From: a virus
DNA length: 20,212 nt
IMG/VR virus record: IMGVR_UViG_3300009075_000021
Location: 1 to 20,212 of that record
Reading direction: 5' to 3' (one strand)
A program made the position numbers and the translations under genes. The notes beneath the pieces were generated by a model. That model was given only the letters and a program-made list of their open reading frames with translations, made no database searches and was not told the DNA's origin. Shown here one piece after another: positions 1-10,983 of the stretch. Positions within the stretch are counted from its first letter, which is position 1. Every line of letters starts with the position of its first letter.

Positions 1-1
1 G

Positions 2-658
2 AAGTGGACCAAGGAATACCCGCACGTACCCTTCCACGCTCTGCTCGACAAGCGCAAGCCCGGGCAGTTCCACAAGCGTTGGATCGTGTTCCCGTGGGAG
101 GGCAACGAGTTCAGTTCCTTCGAGGACAATGTGGTCAGGCTCCTCCAGTTTGTCGGCGAAGATCCGACGCGCGGTGGCTTGCACGAAACACCGACGCGAG
201 TGGCGAAAGCCTGGAAGCATTGGTGCAGCGGGTACAGCGTCGACCCTGCTACCATCCTCAAGGTATTCGAGGACGGTGCGGAGAAGCACGACCAGATGAT
301 CACCGTGAAGGACATCCCGGTCTACTCGCACTGCGAGCACCACCTCGCACCCATTTTCGGCACGGTCACCATCAGCTACATCCCGAACGGTAAGATTGTC
401 GGGCTCAGCAAGCTCTCGCGCCTTGCGGACGTGTTCGCACGTCGCTTGCAAGTGCAGGAGCGCATGACGGACCAGATCGCAGACGCGCTGCATGAGCACC
501 TGAACCCGCTCGGTGTCGGTGTCATCATGAAGGCGCGTCACCTGTGCATGGAGTCGCGTGGCGTGTGCCAACAGGGGCACCACACGATAACCACAGCGGT
601 CCGCGGCGTCATTAAGACGGACGCAAGTGCTCGTGCGGAGTTCCTGCGCTTGGTGTAA
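2..658 (+). CDS. folE: GTP cyclohydrolase I (FolE), 5'-partial
   Basis: This enzyme converts GTP to 7,8-dihydroneopterin triphosphate, the first step of folate and of 7-deazaguanine (queuosine/preQ0) synthesis. Counting from the GTG at 86, the zinc-site motif CEHH is at residues 83-86 and the third zinc ligand lies in LCMESRGV (C154). The GLSKLSR segment (106-112) and the C-terminal QQGHHTITT stretch are also typical of the family. The frame is open with GC-rich third positions to the left window edge, so the true start is probably outside the window. No ribosome site precedes the GTG at 86. A GTG at 131 has GAGG five bases upstream and would give a minimal FolE. It is followed after 22 nt by the dpdA-like gene, which suggests a role in DNA base modification rather than folate supply. 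The family call is very secure; only the N-terminus is uncertain. Confidence 0.93.
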   Translation, partial: KWTKEYPHVPFHALLDKRKPGQFHKRWIVFPWEGNEFSSFEDNVVRLLQFVGEDPTRGGLHETPTRVAKAWKHWCSGYSVDPATILKVFEDGAEKHDQMITVKDIPVYSHCEHHLAPIFGTVTISYIPNGKIVGLSKLSRLADVFARRLQVQERMTDQIADALHEHLNPLGVGVIMKARHLCMESRGVCQQGHHTITTAVRGVIKTDASARAEFLRLV

Positions 659-680
659 ACTAGCAGCAGGGAGGCCGCTG

Positions 681-1616
681 ATGCACATCTACACCGCTGC
701 GGTTTACTCGAACGGTTACATGCGAGGGCAGGGTAGCCGTTACGAGAAGCTGAACGACCACGAGAAAAACATCGTCCACGAGTTGCCGCACCTCCTTGAA
801 TCATGGCACTACGTCGGGAAGCAGAAGTACGTTGACGACATGCGCCGCGAGCAGGCGCAAATCTTTCTGGACTCCGGCGCGTTCTCTGCGTGGACGTTGG
901 GCGTCAAGCTCACCGTGTATGATTACTGCGAGTATATCAAGCGCAACATGGACATCCTGCGCGTTGAGGACGGTGCGCTTATGGCGTCGGTGCTGGACAG
1001 CATCGGTGGCAACGCAGCGTCCGCGGAGGGAACGTACCGCAACCAACTCGAGATGGAGGAGCGTGGCGTGCGCCCTCTGCCTTGCTTCCACAAGGGTGAA
1101 CCCGAAGCTGCGCTCGAATACTACGTCGCGAACTACGACTACATCACACTCGGTGGCATGGTCGGCACAAGCGCTGCTCAGCTGGAAGTGTGGCTCGACC
1201 GTATATGGGAGAAGTATCTAACGGACGGCAGCGGTCGTGCGCGCGTCAAGGTACACGGGTTCGGTATGACGTCCGTGCCGCTCATGGAAGCTTACCCGTG
1301 GTATTCGTGCGACTCGTCGTCGTGGATTCAAGCTGCTGCGTTCGGTAGCGTCATGACACCAGAGCACGGACCCATCAAGGTGTCGAGCTCAAGCCCAAGC
1401 AGGCACGACGCCGGACAGCACATAACCACACTGACGCCGCTCGAGACTGAATACCTGTTCCGCATGCTTGAGAAGCAAGGCTTCACGTATGAACGGCTGA
1501 GCACTGTCTACGAGGCCCGGGCAGCTTACAACCTGTGGGCATTCGGCGTGATAAACACAATGATCAACGCATCGCACAGCGAAGTCTTTCGTGCGCGCGT
1601 GCAGGAGCTTTTCTAA
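681..1616 (+). CDS. dpdA: DpdA-like DNA 7-deazaguanine transglycosylase
   Basis: The 311-residue protein resembles phage DpdA proteins, relatives of tRNA-guanine transglycosylase (TGT) that exchange guanine in DNA for a 7-deazaguanine base. Visible signatures are DSGAFSAW (64-71), corresponding to the DSGGFQ-type active-site motif of TGT, then LPCFHKGEP (133-141), ITLGGMVG (155-162) and GFGMT (193-197). YSCDSSSW (208-215) follows, where D211 is the likely catalytic nucleophile. The ATG at 681 was chosen because AGGGAGG lies just upstream; an in-frame start at 627 would overlap folE. Its stop overlaps the next ATG by one base (TAATG), so it is co-translated with the clamp gene. The protein is shorter than bacterial TGTs, and I see no CxCxxC-type zinc motif, as expected for compact phage forms. 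The exact base inserted cannot be told from this gene. An archaeosine- or tRNA-type TGT role is less likely given the phage replication context. Confidence 0.8.
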   Translation: MHIYTAAVYSNGYMRGQGSRYEKLNDHEKNIVHELPHLLESWHYVGKQKYVDDMRREQAQIFLDSGAFSAWTLGVKLTVYDYCEYIKRNMDILRVEDGALMASVLDSIGGNAASAEGTYRNQLEMEERGVRPLPCFHKGEPEAALEYYVANYDYITLGGMVGTSAAQLEVWLDRIWEKYLTDGSGRARVKVHGFGMTSVPLMEAYPWYSCDSSSWIQAAAFGSVMTPEHGPIKVSSSSPSRHDAGQHITTLTPLETEYLFRMLEKQGFTYERLSTVYEARAAYNLWAFGVINTMINASHSEVFRARVQELF

Positions 1617-2599
1617 TGCTGAAGGAATTGCGGTTCGTACAGGGTGCAGTCGCCAAGAAAGACTTCATGCCTGCAATGACGCACTTCGTTATCGAGGACG
1701 GTGCTGTGCGAGCGTACAACGGTTCGCTCGCCCTGTGCGCGCCGATTGCTTTCAACATTGACTGCAAACCCAAGGCCGCCGCACTGGTCAACGCGATCGC
1801 GCAATGCACGGACACCGACGAGAACGGGCACGACTACCCCATCCAACTCGCAATGACGCCAGCAGGTCGCTTGCGCATTGCTTGCGGTCAGTTCAAAGCG
1901 TTTGTCGACTGCATTGCCGAGGAAACCCCGCACGTACAACCCGAGGGTGAGCGTGTGGACTTCGACGGGGAGACTGTGCTCCGTGCGCTGAAAGTGGTGC
2001 AGCCGTTCATCGGCGACGACGCTTCGCGCCAGTGGTGCAACGGTGTGCTGATGCGCGGTCAAAGCGTGTTCGCAACGAACAACGTTGTCGCGGTCGAATA
2101 CTGGACCGAAGCAACCATGCCAGTCGAGATTAACATCCCTCGCGCAGCGGTTGCGGAGATGCTGCGCATCAACGAGCCTCCGACGCATGCACAAGTCACC
2201 GAAAACTCGGTGACGTTCCACTACACCGACAAGCGCTGGATTCGCAGCCAGCTTCTCGGTCTGGAGTGGCCGGACATCGGCAAGCTGTTTGCCAACAGCG
2301 ACAACGCTACCGCGATCGACAAGCGCATATTCGACGGGCTGGAAAAGCTGAAGCGGTTCGTAGACAAGGCAGGGCGCGTGTTTATTGGAAGTGGTACGCT
2401 ACGCACTGCACCCGGCGAAAAAGAGGATGAAGGCGCACGCTTCGAGATACCAGGCCTCGAGTGTGAAGGCATCTATAATATCGAAATGCTCATGCTACTG
2501 CGCAACGTCGCAACGCACATCGACTTCAGCACGTACCCTGCCCCAAGCGTGTTCTACGGGGAGCGCTTGCGTGGTGCGCTTGTAGGAATGCGGATGTGA
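1616..2599 (+). CDS. Probable sliding clamp (beta-clamp/DnaN-like) processivity factor
   Basis: The 327-residue soluble protein has the look of a divergent beta-clamp. It has alternating beta-strand/helix segments with no membrane segment. A central VFATNNVVAVEYW stretch (about residues 161-173) is reminiscent of the VATDGHRLA strand of DnaN. The C-terminus ends in LRGALVGMRM, which parallels the VVMPMRL ending of bacterial clamps. A clamp encircles DNA and tethers the polymerase; the gene directly downstream is the phage DNA polymerase, whose start overlaps this stop (GTGA, 4 nt). Its own ATG overlaps the dpdA stop by one base. The assignment rests on weak motif resemblance plus context, so another replication accessory protein is possible. 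A structure prediction showing three repeated clamp domains would settle it. Confidence 0.5.
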   Translation: MLKELRFVQGAVAKKDFMPAMTHFVIEDGAVRAYNGSLALCAPIAFNIDCKPKAAALVNAIAQCTDTDENGHDYPIQLAMTPAGRLRIACGQFKAFVDCIAEETPHVQPEGERVDFDGETVLRALKVVQPFIGDDASRQWCNGVLMRGQSVFATNNVVAVEYWTEATMPVEINIPRAAVAEMLRINEPPTHAQVTENSVTFHYTDKRWIRSQLLGLEWPDIGKLFANSDNATAIDKRIFDGLEKLKRFVDKAGRVFIGSGTLRTAPGEKEDEGARFEIPGLECEGIYNIEMLMLLRNVATHIDFSTYPAPSVFYGERLRGALVGMRM

Positions 2600-4614
2600 G
2601 AGCAGACGCTCTAGGCTTGTGGTGGCGCGACGAACCAATCGTCAAAGCGGTCAAGGAGGCTGCACCCAAGCGCACGCCACCGGAACCCGTGTGGTTACGC
2701 TCGGACTACCTGCCCGGCTTGGAAGACGCGCTGCGCTTCAACGTGCATGTGATGAGCGACCCCGAGCTCGCGGAAGCACGCCTGCGCCGGGACAAGCTGC
2801 TGTTCGATGTGGAGTCATATTGGAATTACTTCCTCATCAGCTTCGCGTCGTACACCACCGGCGCGATCGTCTACTTTGAAATGTCCTCCGGGCAAGAGCT
2901 AGCGGAGCGCGCGAAGCTCGAGTGGATAATGCGCAGCTTCACCCTCGTTGGCTTCAACAGCTACGGATACGACCTGCCTATGGCAGCGCTTGCGCTTGCC
3001 GGCAAGAACACCGAACAGATCAAGACTGCCACCAACCGCATCATCCAAGAGGAGTGGCGTGCGACCGACGTGCTGAAGCAGAACAAGGTGCGCGCACTCA
3101 AAAACATTGACCACATCGACCTCATTGAAGTAGCACCGCTCACCGCGAGCTTGAAGATTTACGGTGGACGGTTGCACACGCCTCGCATGCAGGACTTGCC
3201 CTTTCACCATGAGGCAACGCTGTCGCCCGACCAGATGGCGATCGTGCGATGGTACAACGTCAACGACCTCATGCAGACAGGGTTCCTCCTCGAGTCGCTT
3301 ACCGAACAGGTTGAACTCCGTGAGAGCTTGGGGCGCGAGTACGACATCGACCTTCGCTCGAGGTCGGATGCACAAATCGCGGAAGCGGTTATTTCGAACG
3401 AGCTCCACCGGCTGGACGGCAGCCGCCCGGGCAAGCCTGTCATCGAGCCCGGCACCTCGTACCGCTACAAGGTGCCTTCGTTTTTGAAGTACGAGTCCCC
3501 GTTGATGCAGTGGGCGCTCGAGGTCGTGCGGAACGCCTGGTTCGTCGTAGAGCATCACGGGTCGGTAGGCATGCCCCCGGAGGTCGGTGCGCTGCACCTG
3601 CGCATCGGTGGGAACGTGTACCGCATGGGCATCGGTGGACTGCACAGTTCCGAGACCACAATCGCGCACGTTGCAGGGACAACGCATTGCATTGTCGACC
3701 GCGACGTGACGTCATACTACCCTCAAATCATTTTGAATCAGCAACTGTACCCGCACCACCTCGGGCCGCAGTTCTTGCGCGTGTACAGCAACATCGTGAA
3801 CCGTCGTGTTGCTGCTAAGTCCGCAGGCATGCGCGTGGTGGCAGACACGTTGAAGATCGTGGTGAACGGTTCGTTCGGCAAGCTCGGAAGCAAGTACAGC
3901 ATCCTGTACTCCCCGGACCTGCTAGTACAGGTTACCGTCACCGGGCAACTCGCGCTGCTGATGCTTATCGAGCGCCTGGAGCTCAGCGGTGTGCAGGTCG
4001 TGTCGGCGAATACGGACGGTGTGGTCATCAAATGCGAGCGTGCGCAGCGCGACAGCATGGAACGGGTCATCCACCAATGGGAACGCGACACGGGGTTCCA
4101 GACAGAGGAAACCGAGTACGCTGCATATTATTCGCGTGACGTGAATAACTACATCGCGGTCAAGGTGCCGGACAAGGACGGCAAGGTCGGCGTGAAGTCC
4201 AAGGGTGCGTACAACAATCCATGGAACGACCCAAAGCAAGCAATCTTTCGCTTGCATATGAATCCGAAGTCCACAGTCTGCATCGACGCGGTGGAGATGC
4301 TGCTAACTAAGAACATCCCCGTGACGGACACCATTCGCGCTTGCACCGACGTCCGCAAGTTCGTGAGCGTGCGCAAGGTGAAGGGCGGAGCAGTCAAGAA
4401 CGGCGTATACCTCGGCGCCTCAATTCGTTGGTATTACAGCACCGACAACGAGGGCGAGATGGTTTACGCCAGCAGCGGGAACAAGGTGCCACGCAGCGAC
4501 GGAGCGAAGCCGCTCATGCAACTGCCTGCCCAACTTCCTGACGATGTGGATTACGACTGGTATATCGCAGAAGCCACAAAAATCCTCCGGGAGATTGGCT
4601 ACACGGAAGGGTAA
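2596..4614 (+). CDS. Family B DNA polymerase with 3'-5' exonuclease
   Basis: The 672-residue replicative polymerase copies the phage genome. The N-terminal proofreading domain shows Exo I (D71-V-E73), Exo II (GFNSYGYDLP, N121 and D126) and Exo III (YNVND, Y220 and D224). The polymerase domain shows motif A DVTSYYPQ (D370), motif B KIVVNGSFGKLGSKY (K420, N424, G425) and motif C SANTDGVV (D474). The first acidic residue of the usual DTD in motif C is Asn here (N472-T-D474). Start choice: a GTG overlapping the clamp stop (GTGA), with GTAGGA about 8 bases upstream; no better start is visible. It is compact for family B, lacking large N-terminal or terminal-protein (TPR1/2) insertions, so protein-primed replication is not indicated. 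The neighbouring clamp candidate suggests a processive polymerase. Very confident of family; strand-specific role is inference. Confidence 0.93.
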   Translation: MRADALGLWWRDEPIVKAVKEAAPKRTPPEPVWLRSDYLPGLEDALRFNVHVMSDPELAEARLRRDKLLFDVESYWNYFLISFASYTTGAIVYFEMSSGQELAERAKLEWIMRSFTLVGFNSYGYDLPMAALALAGKNTEQIKTATNRIIQEEWRATDVLKQNKVRALKNIDHIDLIEVAPLTASLKIYGGRLHTPRMQDLPFHHEATLSPDQMAIVRWYNVNDLMQTGFLLESLTEQVELRESLGREYDIDLRSRSDAQIAEAVISNELHRLDGSRPGKPVIEPGTSYRYKVPSFLKYESPLMQWALEVVRNAWFVVEHHGSVGMPPEVGALHLRIGGNVYRMGIGGLHSSETTIAHVAGTTHCIVDRDVTSYYPQIILNQQLYPHHLGPQFLRVYSNIVNRRVAAKSAGMRVVADTLKIVVNGSFGKLGSKYSILYSPDLLVQVTVTGQLALLMLIERLELSGVQVVSANTDGVVIKCERAQRDSMERVIHQWERDTGFQTEETEYAAYYSRDVNNYIAVKVPDKDGKVGVKSKGAYNNPWNDPKQAIFRLHMNPKSTVCIDAVEMLLTKNIPVTDTIRACTDVRKFVSVRKVKGGAVKNGVYLGASIRWYYSTDNEGEMVYASSGNKVPRSDGAKPLMQLPAQLPDDVDYDWYIAEATKILREIGYTEG

Positions 4615-4633: not shown

Positions 4634-4662
4634 TTGCTTTTATATGCACTCACGCATAAGCT
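4634..4662 (+). promoter_or_regulatory. Weak sigma70-like promoter candidate
   Basis: TTGCTT (4634-4639) and TAAGCT (4657-4662) are separated by 17 bases in a locally AT-rich stretch, upstream of the gene at 4713. The -10 match is poor (three of six), so this is only a candidate. The position, just after the polymerase stop and before a leader with an inverted repeat, is the main argument. Confidence 0.2.
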
Positions 4663-4668
4663 TTGTAT

Positions 4669-4687
4669 TGCAGACAAGCCGTCTGCA
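4669..4687 (+). repeat. Perfect 7-bp inverted repeat in leader
   Basis: TGCAGAC and GTCTGCA are separated by a 5-base loop (AAGCC). The element lies between the polymerase stop and the ribosome site of the small gene at 4713. No T-run follows, so it is not a classical terminator. A repressor operator or a short mRNA hairpin near the ribosome site are both possible. Confidence 0.4.
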
Positions 4688-4712
4688 TGGCGATCTAGAA
4701 AAGGAGTTCCTA

Positions 4713-5048
4713 ATGGTTGGTTCTAACTTAGAGCAATCAATCAGCAAGCGTGTTCTTGAAGCACTGCAAGCGCCCTTGGCGGAGATTGTTTTTGGCGCAG
4801 TTCACAACGCGATCGCGTCTGGTGAAGCGCCTGCTCCGGAAGACCAAAGCGGTTCCAAGTTCTCCCGCCCGGTGAAGGGCGGACGGTGTGCCAAAATTTG
4901 GGACACCTTGGACAAGGTAAGCCGCGAACAGGGTGCTGCCCCATCGCTGGAAGAGATTCGGCGCCTAGCTAAGCGTCGGCATTGGAATATCAACACAGCA
5001 CGCATCCAATACTACCGCTGGCGCGCAAACAGCCACGCGGCAAACTGA
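4713..5048 (+). CDS. Small phage protein of unknown function
   Basis: The 111-residue soluble protein has no signal peptide or membrane segment. The N-terminal 40 residues are helical and acidic/neutral. After a linker (41-55), the C-terminal half carries KGGRCAKIWDTLD (55-67), a helix SLEEIRRLAKRRH (78-90) and WNINTARIQYYRWR (91-104). Its basic, aromatic tail could bind nucleic acid. From memory, short phage proteins with a KGGRC-IWD-LD ... N-T-RIQYYRWR pattern occur in several phages without known function; this was not searched. Start: ATG at 4713 with AAGGAG six bases upstream, the best ribosome site in the + strand region. Upstream in-frame starts would run through the leader. It sits alone between a leader with an inverted repeat and a terminator-like hairpin, so it is probably its own transcription unit. 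A small regulator or replication accessory would fit, but that is a guess. Confidence 0.8.
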   Translation: MVGSNLEQSISKRVLEALQAPLAEIVFGAVHNAIASGEAPAPEDQSGSKFSRPVKGGRCAKIWDTLDKVSREQGAAPSLEEIRRLAKRRHWNINTARIQYYRWRANSHAAN

Positions 5049-5488: not shown

Positions 5489-8444
5489 TGTAAAACGCTG
5501 CACCAGAATACACACCATCCGCGCCTGCGACTGCGCCAGCAGGGTTTCCCATGATGGACAGCGAACCAGTAGTTCCGCCCGTGTGTTCCTGACCGCCTGT
5601 GTACGTGACTTGCGCGGACAGCCTCCCGTCAATGTACATCTTGGCGGTGAGTGTTGCTGCGTCTTTGACGAATGCAATATGGTGCAGCTTACCATCCAGC
5701 GCGCCACCAAGATATTGAGTAAGAGCTGGGCCGTTCGTGCCTGCACCGTATTCCCAAAGCGTTCCCACAGTTCCGTTGGCAGCTAGATCTAACATGAAGC
5801 CGATGTTCGTCGCGAGTGTTTCGCCGTTGCCACCCATCACCATCAGATACCCGGCTGCCGTCCACGCGCCCCATATCTCCGCGGTGAGGGTTGTGATGGG
5901 TGCAAGCGCAGTGGCGATGGCTGTGTTGCCGGCGTAGTTCGCCTGACCTCCGTTAGTTGAAGCTGGACCTCTGCGTGCGGGAAAGTTCGAGTCGAGTGCG
6001 GAGAACTGGTACGCCTGCACCGGCGTCCCTGTGATTGCAAGGTCGTACCCGTTGCCGCTGCTGTCCGCGAAGGCACCGCTGGCCTCATCGAGCTTCCACC
6101 ATCCGAGAGGGGCGTCTGCGGTGATTTCAGCATCAATGGTGCTGAGCGTGTTAGTGTTAAGCCTCCAGATACGGATGCGCGATCCGACAGCTAGACCACC
6201 GGCAACCGTTGTCGTCAATGTAAGCGAAGTGACGTTGACGCCGGTCGTGACCCAACTATGGTTGATAAGAAAGTTTCGAGCGACGCTGAGGTCACCTTGA
6301 GCAATGCTTCCTTCAAAGTTAACACGCCCTGCCGCGTTGCGCATGAGGTTAGCTGTTGCGGTGAAAGTAGACCCTGAGCTAGCAAGGATTTCACCGATGT
6401 GAGGATCGTTAGACCGACCACCATAGACCGATCCGTTGTTTGCCCCGGTCGCTTGATACCAGTAATTCGTAACCGTGGTGTCGGCGTTATATGTCAGTCG
6501 CAGCGTCATCAGTGACGAGCCTGCATTTTGCAGCTTGAGCTCAACGAGGTAATGCTCGTCACTATCTAAATCAAGACCGCTAATGGTCAGTGTGGTTGAA
6601 GCCGATCCGGTGACTACGGATTCGCCCATGAATTGCAGCGCGCCCCCGCCCCCTCCGCCACCTCCGCCAACCACAGGCACCCACTCTGCATCCTTGCGCG
6701 CGTATTGCGCCCCGTCAATTGGAGCTTCGCTAACCCAAGGCGTTACACCTGCAACCCCTGCGTTGACCTCGTACCATGCTGAAGCGGTTTGATCGTAGAC
6801 GAGCGTGTGGTCCGGTACGTCAGCAAACAGCCACTCCGCGTTGTCCGCGTCCCACGTTGCGAAGTTGCCGTTCTGACCTGCCCATGCACCCGTCGCAGCA
6901 GGCGTGAGCGGGATGAAGTACGTGTCACCGTCGACAGGGGACACGGGCGGAGTGGTTAGCGTTGTGCTGACCACATTGGAACCCGTGTCCGCGGACTCCG
7001 CTGGCATCGTTGGGTCGCCCGGTACAGCCGGGTTCGCTATGGTCCCGAGGTAACTGGTCACACCGAGCGCATAGATGTCCTCGAGCGCTTCAATTTTAAT
7101 CGAGCCCTTTTGCAGCGTCCCCTTCGAAATCTTGATTACACGGTACACCGTGCCGTTGATGTCACGCGCTGCCCAATTGAGTCTGAACAGGTCGCCAAAC
7201 TTCACGCTCCAGGCGCGCCGGTTAATCTCGAACGTGATTTTGCTGAGCGGTGTGACGCGGCTTGCAAGCTCCCGTGCCAGCACAGTGCGCGCGACTGTAT
7301 GGTCGCGGATGCCCTTGTACTCGAGCTTCACCGGAACGCGCGCACCCTGCGCGTCAATGTTCGCTAGGTCTTGCTGCGAGATCGCGGTGTCCTTACCGTT
7401 GTCCGGATCCGTGTAGATAAGGGTTACTTCGTTGACCGTTTCGCCCCACGCTTGCCGCTGATAGTCGGTCAGCTGAAGGATGTCGTACTCGTCATATATC
7501 GGGAGCGCCGGGATGCTGTAGTCACCGCGCACGAGAACGAGCTCGTACTTCCCTGTCGCGGTGTTGAGCGTTAGACCGCCGGCAATGTGGTCAAGAATAA
7601 TCTCGATGAACTGCTCGATCGACGCGGTTTGGTTCCAGTTAATTGCAAGGCCGAAGTTCTCGGTGAACAGCTTGTCCGCTACTGCGGTGAACGTTGTGCT
7701 GTCCATCAACGCAGTGTCGACGCCCATGCCCCACCGAGGGTCTGTGAGGCACTGGTAGATGATGTGAGCGGGGTTCATCAGCTTCGTGCTGATGGTAGCT
7801 TTGGCGGAGTACCATGCTGTTCCACCGTACCAACCTGACAGGATACGCCGCACACGCACTGCCCAGACCTTCGGGTAGGCGGTCGTACCAATGTAGAAGG
7901 GGGATGCTGCGCTCCCTGTCAGGTATGCGAAGATGCCCCTGTAGGCAATGCTCGAGCCCGTCTGTGCAAGGAGGTAAGCGTTCGCAGTCTGTGCCTGCGT
8001 GCCGAACATGAACGACACGTCGCCTGCGACACCACCTTCGCGCTTCTCGCCACCGAACAGCGACTTGAGGTTAATGTTGATTGTGGAGTTAGAAGTTACT
8101 GCACCGGACCATGCTTGCTTCTCACCGATGAGGATGCGGTTGACTTGGTCGATTGGTCCGTGGCACAACCCTGCGTGATGGTCGATGTAATACTTGAAGC
8201 CAACTGTCGTAGACGAAAAGAGGCCGCTCTTCTTAATCTTTTTGACCTTGAGGTTACCGTACCACAGCACGTTCGAGCCGCGGATGTCTACCTCACCGAA
8301 CACCACAGGGATCGGGCGCCCTTCCTCCGCTGTCGGGAACTCGAAGTCGTCCAGTGCAGCAGACTTCGGGCCTTGCGGTTTCGGTGCTAACGCTATCCCG
8401 AGGACAAGCGTCACCACCATTACAATGATATATCCCCAGACCAT
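5427..8444 (-). CDS. J-like tail tip / host-specificity protein with LamG domain
   Basis: The 1005-residue central tail tip protein is expected to close the tail tube and contact the host. The N-terminal hydrophobic segment (about 3-22, YIIVMVVTLVLGIAL) and the following EEGRPIPVVFGEV are typical of siphoviral J-like proteins of the phage-tail_3 type. The hub region runs to about residue 480. A DUF2793-like segment follows (about 497-565: PVDGDTYFIP, ATGAWAGQNG, WLFADVPD). Next is APIDGAQYARKDAEWVPV (574-591), a motif common in tail fibres, and a nine-glycine linker (593-601). A beta-rich domain (about 605-760) and a LamG/concanavalin-A-like domain (777-1005, GWWKLDEASG, LHHIAFVKD, YIDG) end the protein. 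Start: ATG at 8444, two bases after the previous stop, without a strong ribosome site, so it is probably translated by coupling; an in-frame start at 8537 lies inside the L-like gene. It is the last gene of the tail operon. Confidence 0.88.
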   Translation of the reverse strand: MVWGYIIVMVVTLVLGIALAPKPQGPKSAALDDFEFPTAEEGRPIPVVFGEVDIRGSNVLWYGNLKVKKIKKSGLFSSTTVGFKYYIDHHAGLCHGPIDQVNRILIGEKQAWSGAVTSNSTININLKSLFGGEKREGGVAGDVSFMFGTQAQTANAYLLAQTGSSIAYRGIFAYLTGSAASPFYIGTTAYPKVWAVRVRRILSGWYGGTAWYSAKATISTKLMNPAHIIYQCLTDPRWGMGVDTALMDSTTFTAVADKLFTENFGLAINWNQTASIEQFIEIILDHIAGGLTLNTATGKYELVLVRGDYSIPALPIYDEYDILQLTDYQRQAWGETVNEVTLIYTDPDNGKDTAISQQDLANIDAQGARVPVKLEYKGIRDHTVARTVLARELASRVTPLSKITFEINRRAWSVKFGDLFRLNWAARDINGTVYRVIKISKGTLQKGSIKIEALEDIYALGVTSYLGTIANPAVPGDPTMPAESADTGSNVVSTTLTTPPVSPVDGDTYFIPLTPAATGAWAGQNGNFATWDADNAEWLFADVPDHTLVYDQTASAWYEVNAGVAGVTPWVSEAPIDGAQYARKDAEWVPVVGGGGGGGGGALQFMGESVVTGSASTTLTISGLDLDSDEHYLVELKLQNAGSSLMTLRLTYNADTTVTNYWYQATGANNGSVYGGRSNDPHIGEILASSGSTFTATANLMRNAAGRVNFEGSIAQGDLSVARNFLINHSWVTTGVNVTSLTLTTTVAGGLAVGSRIRIWRLNTNTLSTIDAEITADAPLGWWKLDEASGAFADSSGNGYDLAITGTPVQAYQFSALDSNFPARRGPASTNGGQANYAGNTAIATALAPITTLTAEIWGAWTAAGYLMVMGGNGETLATNIGFMLDLAANGTVGTLWEYGAGTNGPALTQYLGGALDGKLHHIAFVKDAATLTAKMYIDGRLSAQVTYTGGQEHTGGTTGSLSIMGNPAGAVAGADGVYSGAAFYTTALTEERIQAHARALGVYG
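6642..6668 (-). repeat. Nine-glycine linker tract in the J-like gene
   Basis: Nine consecutive GGN codons using mixed third bases (GGC, GGA, GGT, GGG) join the fibre-like APIDGAQYARKDAEWVPV segment to the C-terminal receptor-binding region. The mixed codons argue against recent slippage and for a selected flexible hinge. It is a likely recombination border for exchange of the C-terminal modules. Confidence 0.7.
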
Positions 8445-8446
8445 AT

Positions 8447-9271
8447 TTAGAACACCGATGATTGGCCGAAAGGATTCTTCTGCGGGGTAAACGGGAACCC
8501 GCCGAAGTTCGGCTCGTTGTTGAACTTGCTGACGCAAGTGGTGCGAGTGTGGTCACAGCCCGGGAACACCCTGACGGTCATACCCGACGTTAGCTCTGGA
8601 ATCTGGTGCGTCAATGTAAGCGTGTCGCCAACGTGTTTCTGGATGCCCCTGCGCGCATAGCCCGACGGCACAGCAACTTCCAGCTTGCCCCCGGTATAGT
8701 AGTCGGCCGGCTTAGCTGCGAACGCAGCAGAGGTCACTGTAATACCTGACACGGTTGCTAGGGCAACGTTCTCTTGGAAGGTTAGCGGGTTCACATTGCA
8801 CTCGCCGTCCCCTTGCCCGTAAAGCAAATGAGGGCACATCTTTCCGTAGATGCGCCGGAGTCCGGGTTGCTTCAGCCTGGTGATGATGCTCTGGCAAGTG
8901 AGCTTGGCTGCGTCCTCCGCCCACGAAACGCTCAGCACTCGTCCGGGATAAATAACCCTCGGATCAGCGAGGTCGCTCAGCTGCACACGCTTGATGATTA
9001 AGCTAACCACATCGGACGGTGGGCTCACCGAAAACAGTTCGGCGATCGGGAAGTCGGGCTGGCAGGTGATGGTAAGGTTTTGATTCGACAGCGTGCCGCC
9101 AGCATCCGTCACGTCGCTGCGGGACAGGGACGCGCTCTTGTATACGGTTGACGCAACGGTGATATCTGCATGGTAACTTGTCCATCTTGATATCTGGGTC
9201 AGATAGTAAAACTCATAGAGCTCTACTGGTTGTCCACCTTCGTCACTGTCTTCGTATGTTTCAAAGGCCAT
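8447..9271 (-). CDS. L-like tail tip protein with probable Fe-S cysteines
   Basis: The 274-residue protein matches the phage BR0599/GTA-hub-like C-terminal type related in role to lambda gpL, which joins the tube end to the J hub. Four well-placed cysteines are visible: C146 in KMCPHLLYG, C158 in GDGECNV, C239 in FPGCDH and C246 in TTCVSKF. The C239-x6-C246 spacing equals that of the last two cluster ligands of lambda gpL, so a 4Fe-4S cluster is plausible. The ending NNEPNFGGFPFTPQKNP is a family hallmark. The ATG overlaps the preceding TAA by one base (TAATG), and the next gene starts two bases after its stop. It acts in the tail tip; there is no signal peptide or membrane segment. Confident of family, less so of the bound metal centre. 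Confidence 0.82.
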   Translation of the reverse strand: MAFETYEDSDEGGQPVELYEFYYLTQISRWTSYHADITVASTVYKSASLSRSDVTDAGGTLSNQNLTITCQPDFPIAELFSVSPPSDVVSLIIKRVQLSDLADPRVIYPGRVLSVSWAEDAAKLTCQSIITRLKQPGLRRIYGKMCPHLLYGQGDGECNVNPLTFQENVALATVSGITVTSAAFAAKPADYYTGGKLEVAVPSGYARRGIQKHVGDTLTLTHQIPELTSGMTVRVFPGCDHTRTTCVSKFNNEPNFGGFPFTPQKNPFGQSSVF

Positions 9272-10983
9272 TAGTTGCTCGGTGTTTTGACACTGCTGAC
9301 TTGGATATCAACTTGCGCGGTCCCTGCGCGATAGTGCGTGAGCTTAGCCTTATCGTTAGCGATCCGCATTAGTCCCACAAACTCAATTCTTCTAACGTCC
9401 GCAACGGTGAGGTCGCTGGCTTGCAGCACGGAATCAAGTGTCAGCACGTCGTCGCTTCCGTCTGCATAGCTGCTCACAATCCTGCGCGTATAGATGGTCC
9501 CATTCGTCAAGGTTATGCGGATGTCACGGTACGGGTTCCGGTTCGCGGAGAACCCGGAATAGTTTGCACCGGCAACACGAATCACAGGAGTGTTCGGAGG
9601 AACCGTTTCAACCAACTGCAAATCTGGTCGGAAGCTCGGCAGCCAGAACGATACTCTGTTCCCGTCGAGTGCGTGCAAGAGCTGCCGGATGCGCCATACT
9701 TCTTGCAAGCTATGGTTCACGCGCCATTGTTTGCGCGTAGTCACCTTGGACCTGTCCCATCCGCTCGTCTGCACTAGCCTGCCAGAAACGGTATCCACGA
9801 CCGTGACTTGACGGTCAAACGTTTCATCCAGCGTGTCGCCCATGAAGTTCGCGTCCGCCAGCAGTACCTTGCTGTCGTACAGCGTCGAACCCGTTGTGCT
9901 GGCGCGCTTCACGTTGTCGATCACCGTAAAGCTCACAGCGGTCTTTGCCACGCCAGTGGGGAACACGTTACGCTTGACGGGTGATGTCGCGTAGCAAACC
10001 ATCACAGGCATGACCACAGCTTTCACCGTGTAGCTGTTGAGCAGCGGTGCTTCGATGGTGATTGCGCTTCCGGTGAACGAGCTAATGCCCATCACTTCAT
10101 ACTTGTCCTCGTTTTCATAAGTCATTACGAGGCCAGCAACACGGAAATCCGAGTATGCGGTTGTGACAGGGATTGAAACTGCACCGGCTGTGACAGCAGA
10201 CGTAACTCGCCGCTGCTCGAACCATAGGGGGACGCCAAACGTGCGCGGCAGCCAGTCGAACAGCAACGCGCGCAGCTTCGCATCCTCAACCTCGTCGGTT
10301 AGCACTTCGAAGTCCAGCCGCTGGCGAGGCGCACCGCGCACAGTTGAGCGCTGCTCCGTGCCGTTGTACGAGGTCATGACGTCTGTTGCCCATTGCAATT
10401 CTTCAACCATAGGCCCGTCAGGCTGAAACGTAAACAGCACAACGCGCGAACCCGTGACGTTGATGGAGTAGTCCCCAACGTCAAAGTCAAACGTGTAAAA
10501 CGCATCAACGACCGGAGGGCCAGACGTTAGAATGGTGAGCTCGTACTCCGACATACGCAGCGCTTCGTATACAAGCGGAGCAGTCGGTCCCGAGATAGCT
10601 AACCCGTCGGTGTCAGTCTCGACAATAGCGTTCAGCGTGCGCGGAACGAAGTACGCATTCCAGACATCGAAGTACCGAATCTGCGTCGAGAGCAGGTTAC
10701 CGAGCTCAATGCTCGTTGGTATGATGTGGATGCGGTTATAGTAGTCGTCTGAGTAGGCGCGCGGGACCGTACCGCTGAGCAGGTCCGGGTACATTGAAAC
10801 CGGAACATTATCAACTACCGTATGCGCGCCTCTTTCGACGTCGCTGCCCATGCCCACGGTGGAGGTTCTTGTCGGCCACCATGCTGTGTAATCCGTTTCA
10901 AAGGCATTCAACCCGTGCGAGAGCCACGGGTTGATGGGCAAGGGCTCAGCCGGTAACGGAACAAAGCCAGCAAGAACTGCCAT
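9271..10983 (-). CDS. Distal tail / M-like minor tail protein
   Basis: The 570-residue structural protein sits between the minor structural genes and the L/J-like tip genes, where lambda M and Dit-type proteins are found. ATDVMTSYNGTEQRSTVRGAPRQRL (199-223) fits the pattern W-TDV-tayNGTEQR-PR of phage distal-tail proteins. The second half (RKQWRVNHSLQEVWRIRQLL, 417-436, then NRVSFWLPSFRPD) resembles DUF2460-like tail proteins. Two similar modules seem present, about residues 237-318 and 432-522. Start: ATG at 10983 (MAVLAGFVPLPAEPLPINPW), two bases after the upstream TGA; an earlier in-frame start would lie inside the previous gene. The predicted role is a ring or sleeve around the distal tube that anchors the tip. 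The exact family name remains uncertain. Confidence 0.75.
   Translation of the reverse strand: MAVLAGFVPLPAEPLPINPWLSHGLNAFETDYTAWWPTRTSTVGMGSDVERGAHTVVDNVPVSMYPDLLSGTVPRAYSDDYYNRIHIIPTSIELGNLLSTQIRYFDVWNAYFVPRTLNAIVETDTDGLAISGPTAPLVYEALRMSEYELTILTSGPPVVDAFYTFDFDVGDYSINVTGSRVVLFTFQPDGPMVEELQWATDVMTSYNGTEQRSTVRGAPRQRLDFEVLTDEVEDAKLRALLFDWLPRTFGVPLWFEQRRVTSAVTAGAVSIPVTTAYSDFRVAGLVMTYENEDKYEVMGISSFTGSAITIEAPLLNSYTVKAVVMPVMVCYATSPVKRNVFPTGVAKTAVSFTVIDNVKRASTTGSTLYDSKVLLADANFMGDTLDETFDRQVTVVDTVSGRLVQTSGWDRSKVTTRKQWRVNHSLQEVWRIRQLLHALDGNRVSFWLPSFRPDLQLVETVPPNTPVIRVAGANYSGFSANRNPYRDIRITLTNGTIYTRRIVSSYADGSDDVLTLDSVLQASDLTVADVRRIEFVGLMRIANDKAKLTHYRAGTAQVDIQVSSVKTPSN

Follow-up and report, generated by a model that had tools for sequence, protein, structure and literature searches.

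Does the folE gene that lies beside a dpdA-like gene in this environmental virus contig belong to a complete pathway for writing 7-deazaguanines into phage DNA, which base would such a pathway deliver, and what does the domain fused to FolE contribute? The contig, an entire IMG/VR virus record of 20,212 bases, is referred to here as the window. FolE, QueD, QueE, and QueC form the established route from GTP to the base preQ0. The original prediction assigned folE and the dpdA-like gene, 22 nt apart, to the phage 7-deazaguanine DNA-modification pathway and placed a clamp candidate and a polymerase downstream; the ORF list, Pfam, and PHROGs confirm both ORFs, and PHROGs profiles confirm both neighbours. 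The features concerned are the following.

2..100, + strand: Gpt-like phosphoribosyltransferase (PRT) domain, C-terminal third, residues 81-113 of the fusion protein (phrog_8995, 7.9e-7; alignment; model)
122..658, + strand: FolE, GTP cyclohydrolase I domain, residues 121-298 of the fusion protein, with stop codon (PF01227, 5.5e-70; Z 24.3-24.6 against solved FolE/GCH1)
681..1616, + strand: DpdA, predicted DNA-guanine transglycosylase of the 9g type, 311 aa, ATG start, with D64, H192, and D211 (phrog_887; model)
1616..2599, + strand: DNA polymerase processivity factor (clamp) candidate (phrog_947, 1.2e-71)
2596..4614, + strand: DNA polymerase, family B-like (phrog_1252, 1.4e-209)

The FolE frame (2-658, + strand), which matches PF01227 in Pfam (E 5.5e-70) and phrog_2197 in PHROGs (1.9e-77), is open at the window edge, where the end of the contig cuts a 298-aa fusion protein whose start is not inside the window. 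The 22-nt gap (659-680) separates this frame from dpdA, whose stop codon is overlapped by the clamp start (TAATG), and the polymerase comes next. Clamp and polymerase are conserved neighbours of the cassette, the polymerase standing outside the modification pathway proper.

The preQ0 genes and the predicted base

A DpdA search of viral contigs gave 72 loci (designated by L numbers), one of which, L002 (IMGVR_UViG_3300027721_000038, 37,053 bases), encodes an identical DpdA, is 100% identical to window positions 1-2921, and extends leftward. To the left of the window it carries genes for QueE (phrog_2076, 5.6e-54), QueC (PF06508, 1.1e-46), QueD (PF01242, 2.1e-22), and the full FolE (PF01227, 1.3e-69). 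The earlier suggestion to look there for queD, queE, and queC is thus borne out for all three, and the assignment of FolE and DpdA to the modification pathway is supported both by these genes and by the TGT-like model of DpdA described below. The view that the pathway is incomplete is rejected, the complete set being present on the overlapping contig. The gat-queC and queF relatives sought in the same direction did not appear: QueC has no GAT part, and the sole QueF match in the two records (about 54.3 kb in total, and possibly incomplete) is FolE itself. This candidate QueF in the window was rejected, as the PF14489 match (350-523) lies inside FolE, which has the same tunnelling fold.

The gene order queE-queC-queD-(PRT-)folE-dpdA, with the PRT domain present or absent, recurs in 56 of the 72 DpdA loci. 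The FolE/DpdA cassette is an ordinary member of a known system, its closest counterparts being the Queuovirinae cassettes (9g, CAjan, PaMx25, and Quinobequin-P09; dPreQ0/dG+), in which the same genes stand in the same order before clamp and polymerase. It is very probably the complete gene set by which a Queuovirinae-like tailed phage makes preQ0 and places it in DNA; queE, queC, queD, the PRT-folE fusion, and dpdA form one operon-like row before clamp and polymerase, and DpdA, with its TGT fold, would swap guanines of the phage DNA for preQ0, shielding that DNA from restriction enzymes.

From this gene content, we infer that the modified base is most likely dPreQ0, in line with the rule given in an excerpt of PMC6884629 that FolE, QueD, QueE, QueC, and DpdA together yield dPreQ0. 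This base is favoured over dG+ and dPreQ1 because QueC carries no GAT part and because the two records contain no ArcS, no GATase_7, and no QueF outside FolE. The searches for GATase_7 and the ArcS-related DUF5591 covered both records, whose roughly 54.3 kb may be incomplete, and the former is valid because the GATase_7 profile detects the Gat-QueC proteins of 9g, PaMx25, and L023. Another base, be it dG+, dPreQ1, dADG, or a further derivative made by an enzyme encoded elsewhere or supplied by the host, appears unlikely. Some genes may indeed be missing from the 54.3 kb, given that related phage records span about 57-64 kb, and Gat-QueC is used by PaMx25 and L023; however, QueC here is plain, in contrast to the Gat-QueC of 9g and PaMx25, and the negative GATase_7 and DUF5591 results, together with a QueF match confined to FolE, argue against such a derivative.

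Additional genes are found in other DpdA cassettes. In L036 (4769-6771), L028 (1961-3972), and L025 (4101-6067), a class-III aminotransferase-like gene is followed by an ArcS-related DUF5591 gene (PF00202 in L025, 8.7e-28, and PF17884 in L036, 5.8e-9, were scanned, the rest being assigned by eye), a pair that might lead to another 7-deazaguanine derivative. Cassette membrane proteins are encoded in L026 (5270-5746; Vut_1/YhhQ-like, 1.2e-5, slightly under the cut-off), possibly a preQ0 transporter, and in L029 (6230-6661; YdjM-like, 2e-13).

DpdA and its substrate

DpdA (681-1616) matches phrog_887, labelled queuine tRNA-ribosyltransferase, at 3.8e-87 and has no match in the Pfam profile search. 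By tblastn it matches 233 phage records, and in 154 the alignment spans 80% or more of the query; the best identity is 69% (Pseudomonas and Variovorax phages), 9g and CAjan reach 65.0% and 64.6%, and the Queuovirinae proteins of PaMx25, 9g, and CAjan are 65-69% identical over the whole length. A comparison with PDB sequences returned no relevant match, the fold search alone being informative. Structure prediction, proposed earlier as a check that the dpdA-like protein has a TGT barrel, does reveal one: the AlphaFold model (pLDDT 90.2, pTM 0.88) retrieves TGTs in 50 of the 50 matches listed by Foldseek (best E 1.8e-6, TM 0.53, rmsd 7.2) and likewise in 50 of 50 listed by VIA-align (best Z 18.8, rmsd 3.6, 265 residues aligned at 12% identity, human TGT 7nq4). 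The bacterial Dpd system (dpdA-K, dADG) resembles the cassette in combining a TGT-type DpdA with preQ0 synthesis genes, but a bacterial Dpd-type identity was rejected for the window DpdA (14.5 bits where NCBIfam NF041059 requires 200, and 0.025 for PADLOC's DpdA, both below cut-off).

The DSGAFS and CDSSSW motifs to which the prediction had drawn attention are present and contain D64 and D211, respectively; all 30 aligned relatives keep these two residues and H192, which correspond to D72, D215, and H196 of 9g. Both Asp residues are presumably catalytic, as in TGT. A TGT-type zinc site consists of three Cys in a short motif, and such a site is impossible as such in the window DpdA because the protein has only three Cys in all (C83, C135, and C210). 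Section 8 of PMC6884629 characterizes this DpdA type by a His at position 196, a number that we take to refer to the 9g protein.

DNA would be the substrate of DpdA by analogy with its 65-69% identical relatives, which include the tested 9g and CAjan proteins. Action on tRNA instead is what the queuine tRNA-ribosyltransferase annotation in PHROGs and in many records would imply, and the TGT fold of the model is in keeping with it; nevertheless, we regard it as extremely unlikely. According to excerpts of PMC6884629, the 9g protein (65% identical) modifies plasmid DNA with 7-deazaguanines and fails to complement an E. coli tgt mutant, and in CAjan removal of dpdA abolishes the DNA modification and leaves the phage fully sensitive to restriction; the shortage of Cys for a TGT-type zinc site points the same way.

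The PRT-FolE fusion

The apparently new part of the locus is the fusion of FolE to what seems to be a shortened Gpt-type domain found in many such phages. On L002, the complete protein comprises 298 residues (7082-7978, from about window position -238) and starts with a GTG four bases past the queD stop, with a GAGG sequence in front. Its first ~115 residues form the Gpt-like PRT domain (residues 1-118 match phrog_8995, 'phosphoribosyl transferase', 7.9e-7), and residues 121-298 are FolE. The start codon and the PRPP loop lie left of the window edge, and the part of the domain inside the window contains the 'LLDKR' Lys together with the purine-side motif WIVFPWE (80-100). We found no description of this fusion in the literature searched, which did not extend to key work on further phage 7-deazaguanines, reportedly the subject of Cui et al. 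2023 in NAR. The phosphoribosyltransferases in the excerpts of PMC9025141 and PMC11309003 are of the nicotinate/nicotinamide type.

Recognition of the domain depends on the method. The L002 PRT domain has no Pfam match, Pfam Pribosyltran being matched by 14 of the 25 PRT-domain members and L002 not among them, and a single-sequence PDB search gave weak matches (best E 0.42); a profile of the 25 domains found purine PRTases (1vdm, 6.1e-13; Yersinia and E. coli XGPRT, 1.1e-10 to 5.4e-9; S. solfataricus GpT-2, 4.7e-9). None of the sequences scored against the NCBIfam xanthine PRTase model PRK09177 passes its cut-off of 138 bits (L002, 23.5; three relatives, 33.9, 35.6, and 59.7). In an AlphaFold-type model of the fusion (pLDDT 93.9, pTM 0.80), the PRT part, with pLDDT of about 90-98, aligns with E. 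coli XGPRT 1a96 (Z 12.4, rmsd 3.7, 112 residues aligned) and the FolE part with solved FolE/GCH1 (Z 24.3-24.6), and a ppGpp-bound PRT-fold protein, 5vog, is also among the structural matches of the PRT part (Z 11.2). The predicted N-terminal domain thus has the type I PRT fold and is XGPRT-like.

Eight positions (G43, D70, D71, G76, T78, W107, P111, and E113) are invariant in the alignment of 25 PRT domains, whose overall identity to that of L002 is 21-45%, and they map to the pyrophosphate loop, the PRPP loop, and the purine-side motif. Across the wider viral set, 97 of 101 distinct sequences, L002 among them, keep the PRPP motif DDxxD[ST]GxT intact; the exceptions are L008, where Gly stands fifth, L159 and L162, whose motif begins with Glu, and L168, whose motif is degenerate. 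The purine-side W..PW[ED]-type motif is kept in 93 of 95 scored viral sequences, and the pyrophosphate loop has Arg in 79 of 95 and Lys in 7. Fold, pyrophosphate-loop GG, PRPP loop, and purine-side motif (W..xPW[ED]) are shared with bacterial Gpt/XGPRT; unlike these, the viral domain is fused to FolE and, in 98 of the 100 viral sequences scored, lacks ~25 residues of the flexible-loop region lying between the pyrophosphate loop and the PRPP loop. The spacing from GG to DD is 21-33 in 98 of 100 viral sequences (27 in L002); L152 has 39 and L023 has 53, and all 40 bacterial Gpts listed fall within 49-58. We therefore call the domain Gpt-derived rather than Gpt, because the flexible-loop region is mostly absent. 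Values of dN/dS for the PRT domain lie between 0.07 and 0.33 in eight of ten pairs, two being saturated, which indicates purifying selection, weaker than that on FolE in seven of the eight scorable pairs, where the PRT domain evolves faster.

The fusion is present in 25 of the 72 DpdA loci; one further locus (L023) has a separate PRT gene, 42 have FolE without PRT, and four have no FolE in the examined stretch. A PRT-motif search gave at least 202 viral relatives, several of the best 80 being contigs also in the 72-locus set. These best 80 of at least 202, beyond which weaker relatives may be less tied to FolE, comprise 71 FolE fusions, six separate PRT genes with FolE, two separate PRT genes accompanied by que genes in a stretch lacking FolE, and one locus with neither; DpdA is recognized by profile in 50, and many of the other contigs are short. 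At least 40 bacterial relatives are full-length Gpt proteins, with FolE in the stretch of none among the matches listed. The locus with neither (L168, 5827-6303) has a PRT relative whose PRPP motif is degenerate (DSIYSTGST), and its examined stretch gave no match to FolE, Que, or DpdA.

Isolates with the fusion include PaMx25, VpKK5, MMDA13, and Stenotrophomonas phage ply2008005c. In PaMx25 (L090), the fusion, the same as in the window phage, is hidden by the annotation, which divides the region 8874-9804 between an out-of-frame hypothetical ORF (8874-9248) and a folE that starts late (9229); the frame 8902-9801 is open throughout and encodes a PRT-FolE protein of 300 aa. The PRT domain of the window phage matches 37 isolate records, four of which are Immutovirus (Flavobacterium phage). 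The Immutovirus cluster, seen in one of the four records, has a PRT gene directly upstream of folE, together with queD, queE, queF, and an annotated dpdA, and its PRT aligns in the same family at 21% identity; it differs in that the PRT is a separate gene and that its annotated dpdA is not matched by the DpdA profile.

In a quick FolE tree of 146 sequences, many places of which are weakly supported, the fusion is patchy, requiring 20 changes against a shuffled mean of 45.6. The PRT tree, built on few columns and also weak in many places, puts 100 loop-less viral PRTs on one side of a branch (SH-aLRT 88) and groups the L023 PRT with bacterial Gpts. L023 belongs to a fully supported clade of unfused phages in the FolE tree and carries a full-length Gpt gene (PF00156, 5.6e-18) between queD and folE. 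Other salvage enzymes in unfused DpdA loci were sought in a scan of nine hand-picked ORFs out of 203 listed, plus the L023 Gpt. L010 (6104-6493) and L032 (6984-7406), sisters of L023 in the quick FolE tree, have nucleoside 2-deoxyribosyltransferase-like ORFs (PF05014, 2.6e-11 and 2.7e-11) in the queD-folE slot and no PRT, and L027 (6646-6879), likewise without PRT, has a partial ORF of this kind there (PF05014, 0.0054); a MazG-like ORF precedes the 2-deoxyribosyltransferase-like gene in L027 (scanned) and L032 (by eye).

Four paralogous small proteins with a common C-terminal domain are encoded around the cassette (window 4644-5048; L002 3186-3764, 3836-4567, and 4658-5092). The proteins correspond to phrog_21588/17772/18634, of unknown function in PHROGs. 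The domain is present in 57 of 72 DpdA loci and in 15 of the 80 PRT loci listed, and none of the 40 bacterial Gpt loci listed has it.

Candidate roles of the PRT domain

Each DpdA exchange must free one guanine, and each preQ0 costs one GTP. As our preferred reading, at roughly even chances, we propose that the PRT domain salvages the guanine freed by DpdA, inferring every step: the domain would bind guanine and PRPP and make GMP from the guanine freed per exchange, and host kinases would convert GMP to GTP, which would return to the same FolE and close a guanine loop. In many DpdA phages, a loop-less Gpt domain on FolE may recycle guanine in this way; in phages without the fusion, the occupant of the queD-folE slot would be a full-length Gpt in L023 and, in L010 and L032, a nucleoside 2-deoxyribosyltransferase-like protein. 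Salvage is favoured by the retention of PRPP- and purine-binding motifs, by the near-exclusive occurrence of the domain in que/FolE clusters among the loci seen (71 fused and eight more in the same cluster among the best 80 of at least 202), and by the independent full-length Gpt gene in the same slot of L023. Against it, the loss of the ~25-residue loop region may abolish catalysis, L008 lacks the PRPP-motif Asp taken as the general base, and the domain stays below the NCBIfam xanthine PRTase cut-off, has no Pfam match in L002, and evolves faster than FolE in seven of eight pairs. Moreover, the domain is not required for the pathway, because 42 of 72 DpdA loci have FolE without it and because CAjan, which like 9g and unlike this phage has no PRT domain (annotated FolE of 196 aa, only 36 nt between queD and FolE), modifies ~32% of its Gs according to an excerpt of PMC6884629.

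Nearly as likely as salvage is that the domain is catalytically dead and adjusts FolE activity allosterically by sensing GMP, GTP, ppGpp, or PRPP. PRT folds are reused as regulators elsewhere, as in PyrR and PurR, and the flexible-loop region is gone in 98 of 100 scored viral sequences; furthermore, its fusion partner FolE catalyses the opening step of the pathway, the point at which feedback would operate, the binding motifs alone account for the conservation, and the ppGpp-bound 5vog is among the structural matches. However, retention of the pyrophosphate-loop Arg or Lys and of DDxxD exceeds what a nucleotide sensor would need, L023 fills the same slot with a full-length Gpt gene, and the PRT is separate beside folE in some clusters (six of the best 80 of at least 202 loci; Immutovirus). 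A third reading, that the domain turns preQ0 or another 7-deazaguanine into a nucleotide not feeding DpdA, would suit its place in the pathway that makes these bases, and PRT loci other than the 50 with a DpdA recognized by profile may insert the base otherwise, though many of those contigs are short. We consider it very unlikely: the PRPP-motif Asp, which we take to be the general base contacting N7, is conserved, whereas 7-deazaguanines have no N7, and in the 50 DpdA-carrying relatives, which presumably use base exchange, such a nucleotide would be a dead end.

The cassette is an environmental member of a known restriction-evasion system, in which, as excerpts of PMC6884629 report for Rosebush and CAjan, 28-32% of Gs are modified. 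Should guanine salvage prove true, the fusion would show how phages pay for replacing up to one third of their guanines: by our own estimate, which assumes a genome of 58 kb, 59% GC, 30% of Gs, and 100 progeny, about a million guanines would be released per cell, roughly millimolar, and recycling could therefore matter. In that case, the entry enzyme of a DNA-modification pathway would carry a purine-salvage enzyme, and the PRT domain would be one of the shortest working type I phosphoribosyltransferases. Even if it is a sensor, the domain would constitute a repeated, unannotated FolE module that is also present in the isolates PaMx25, VpKK5, and MMDA13.
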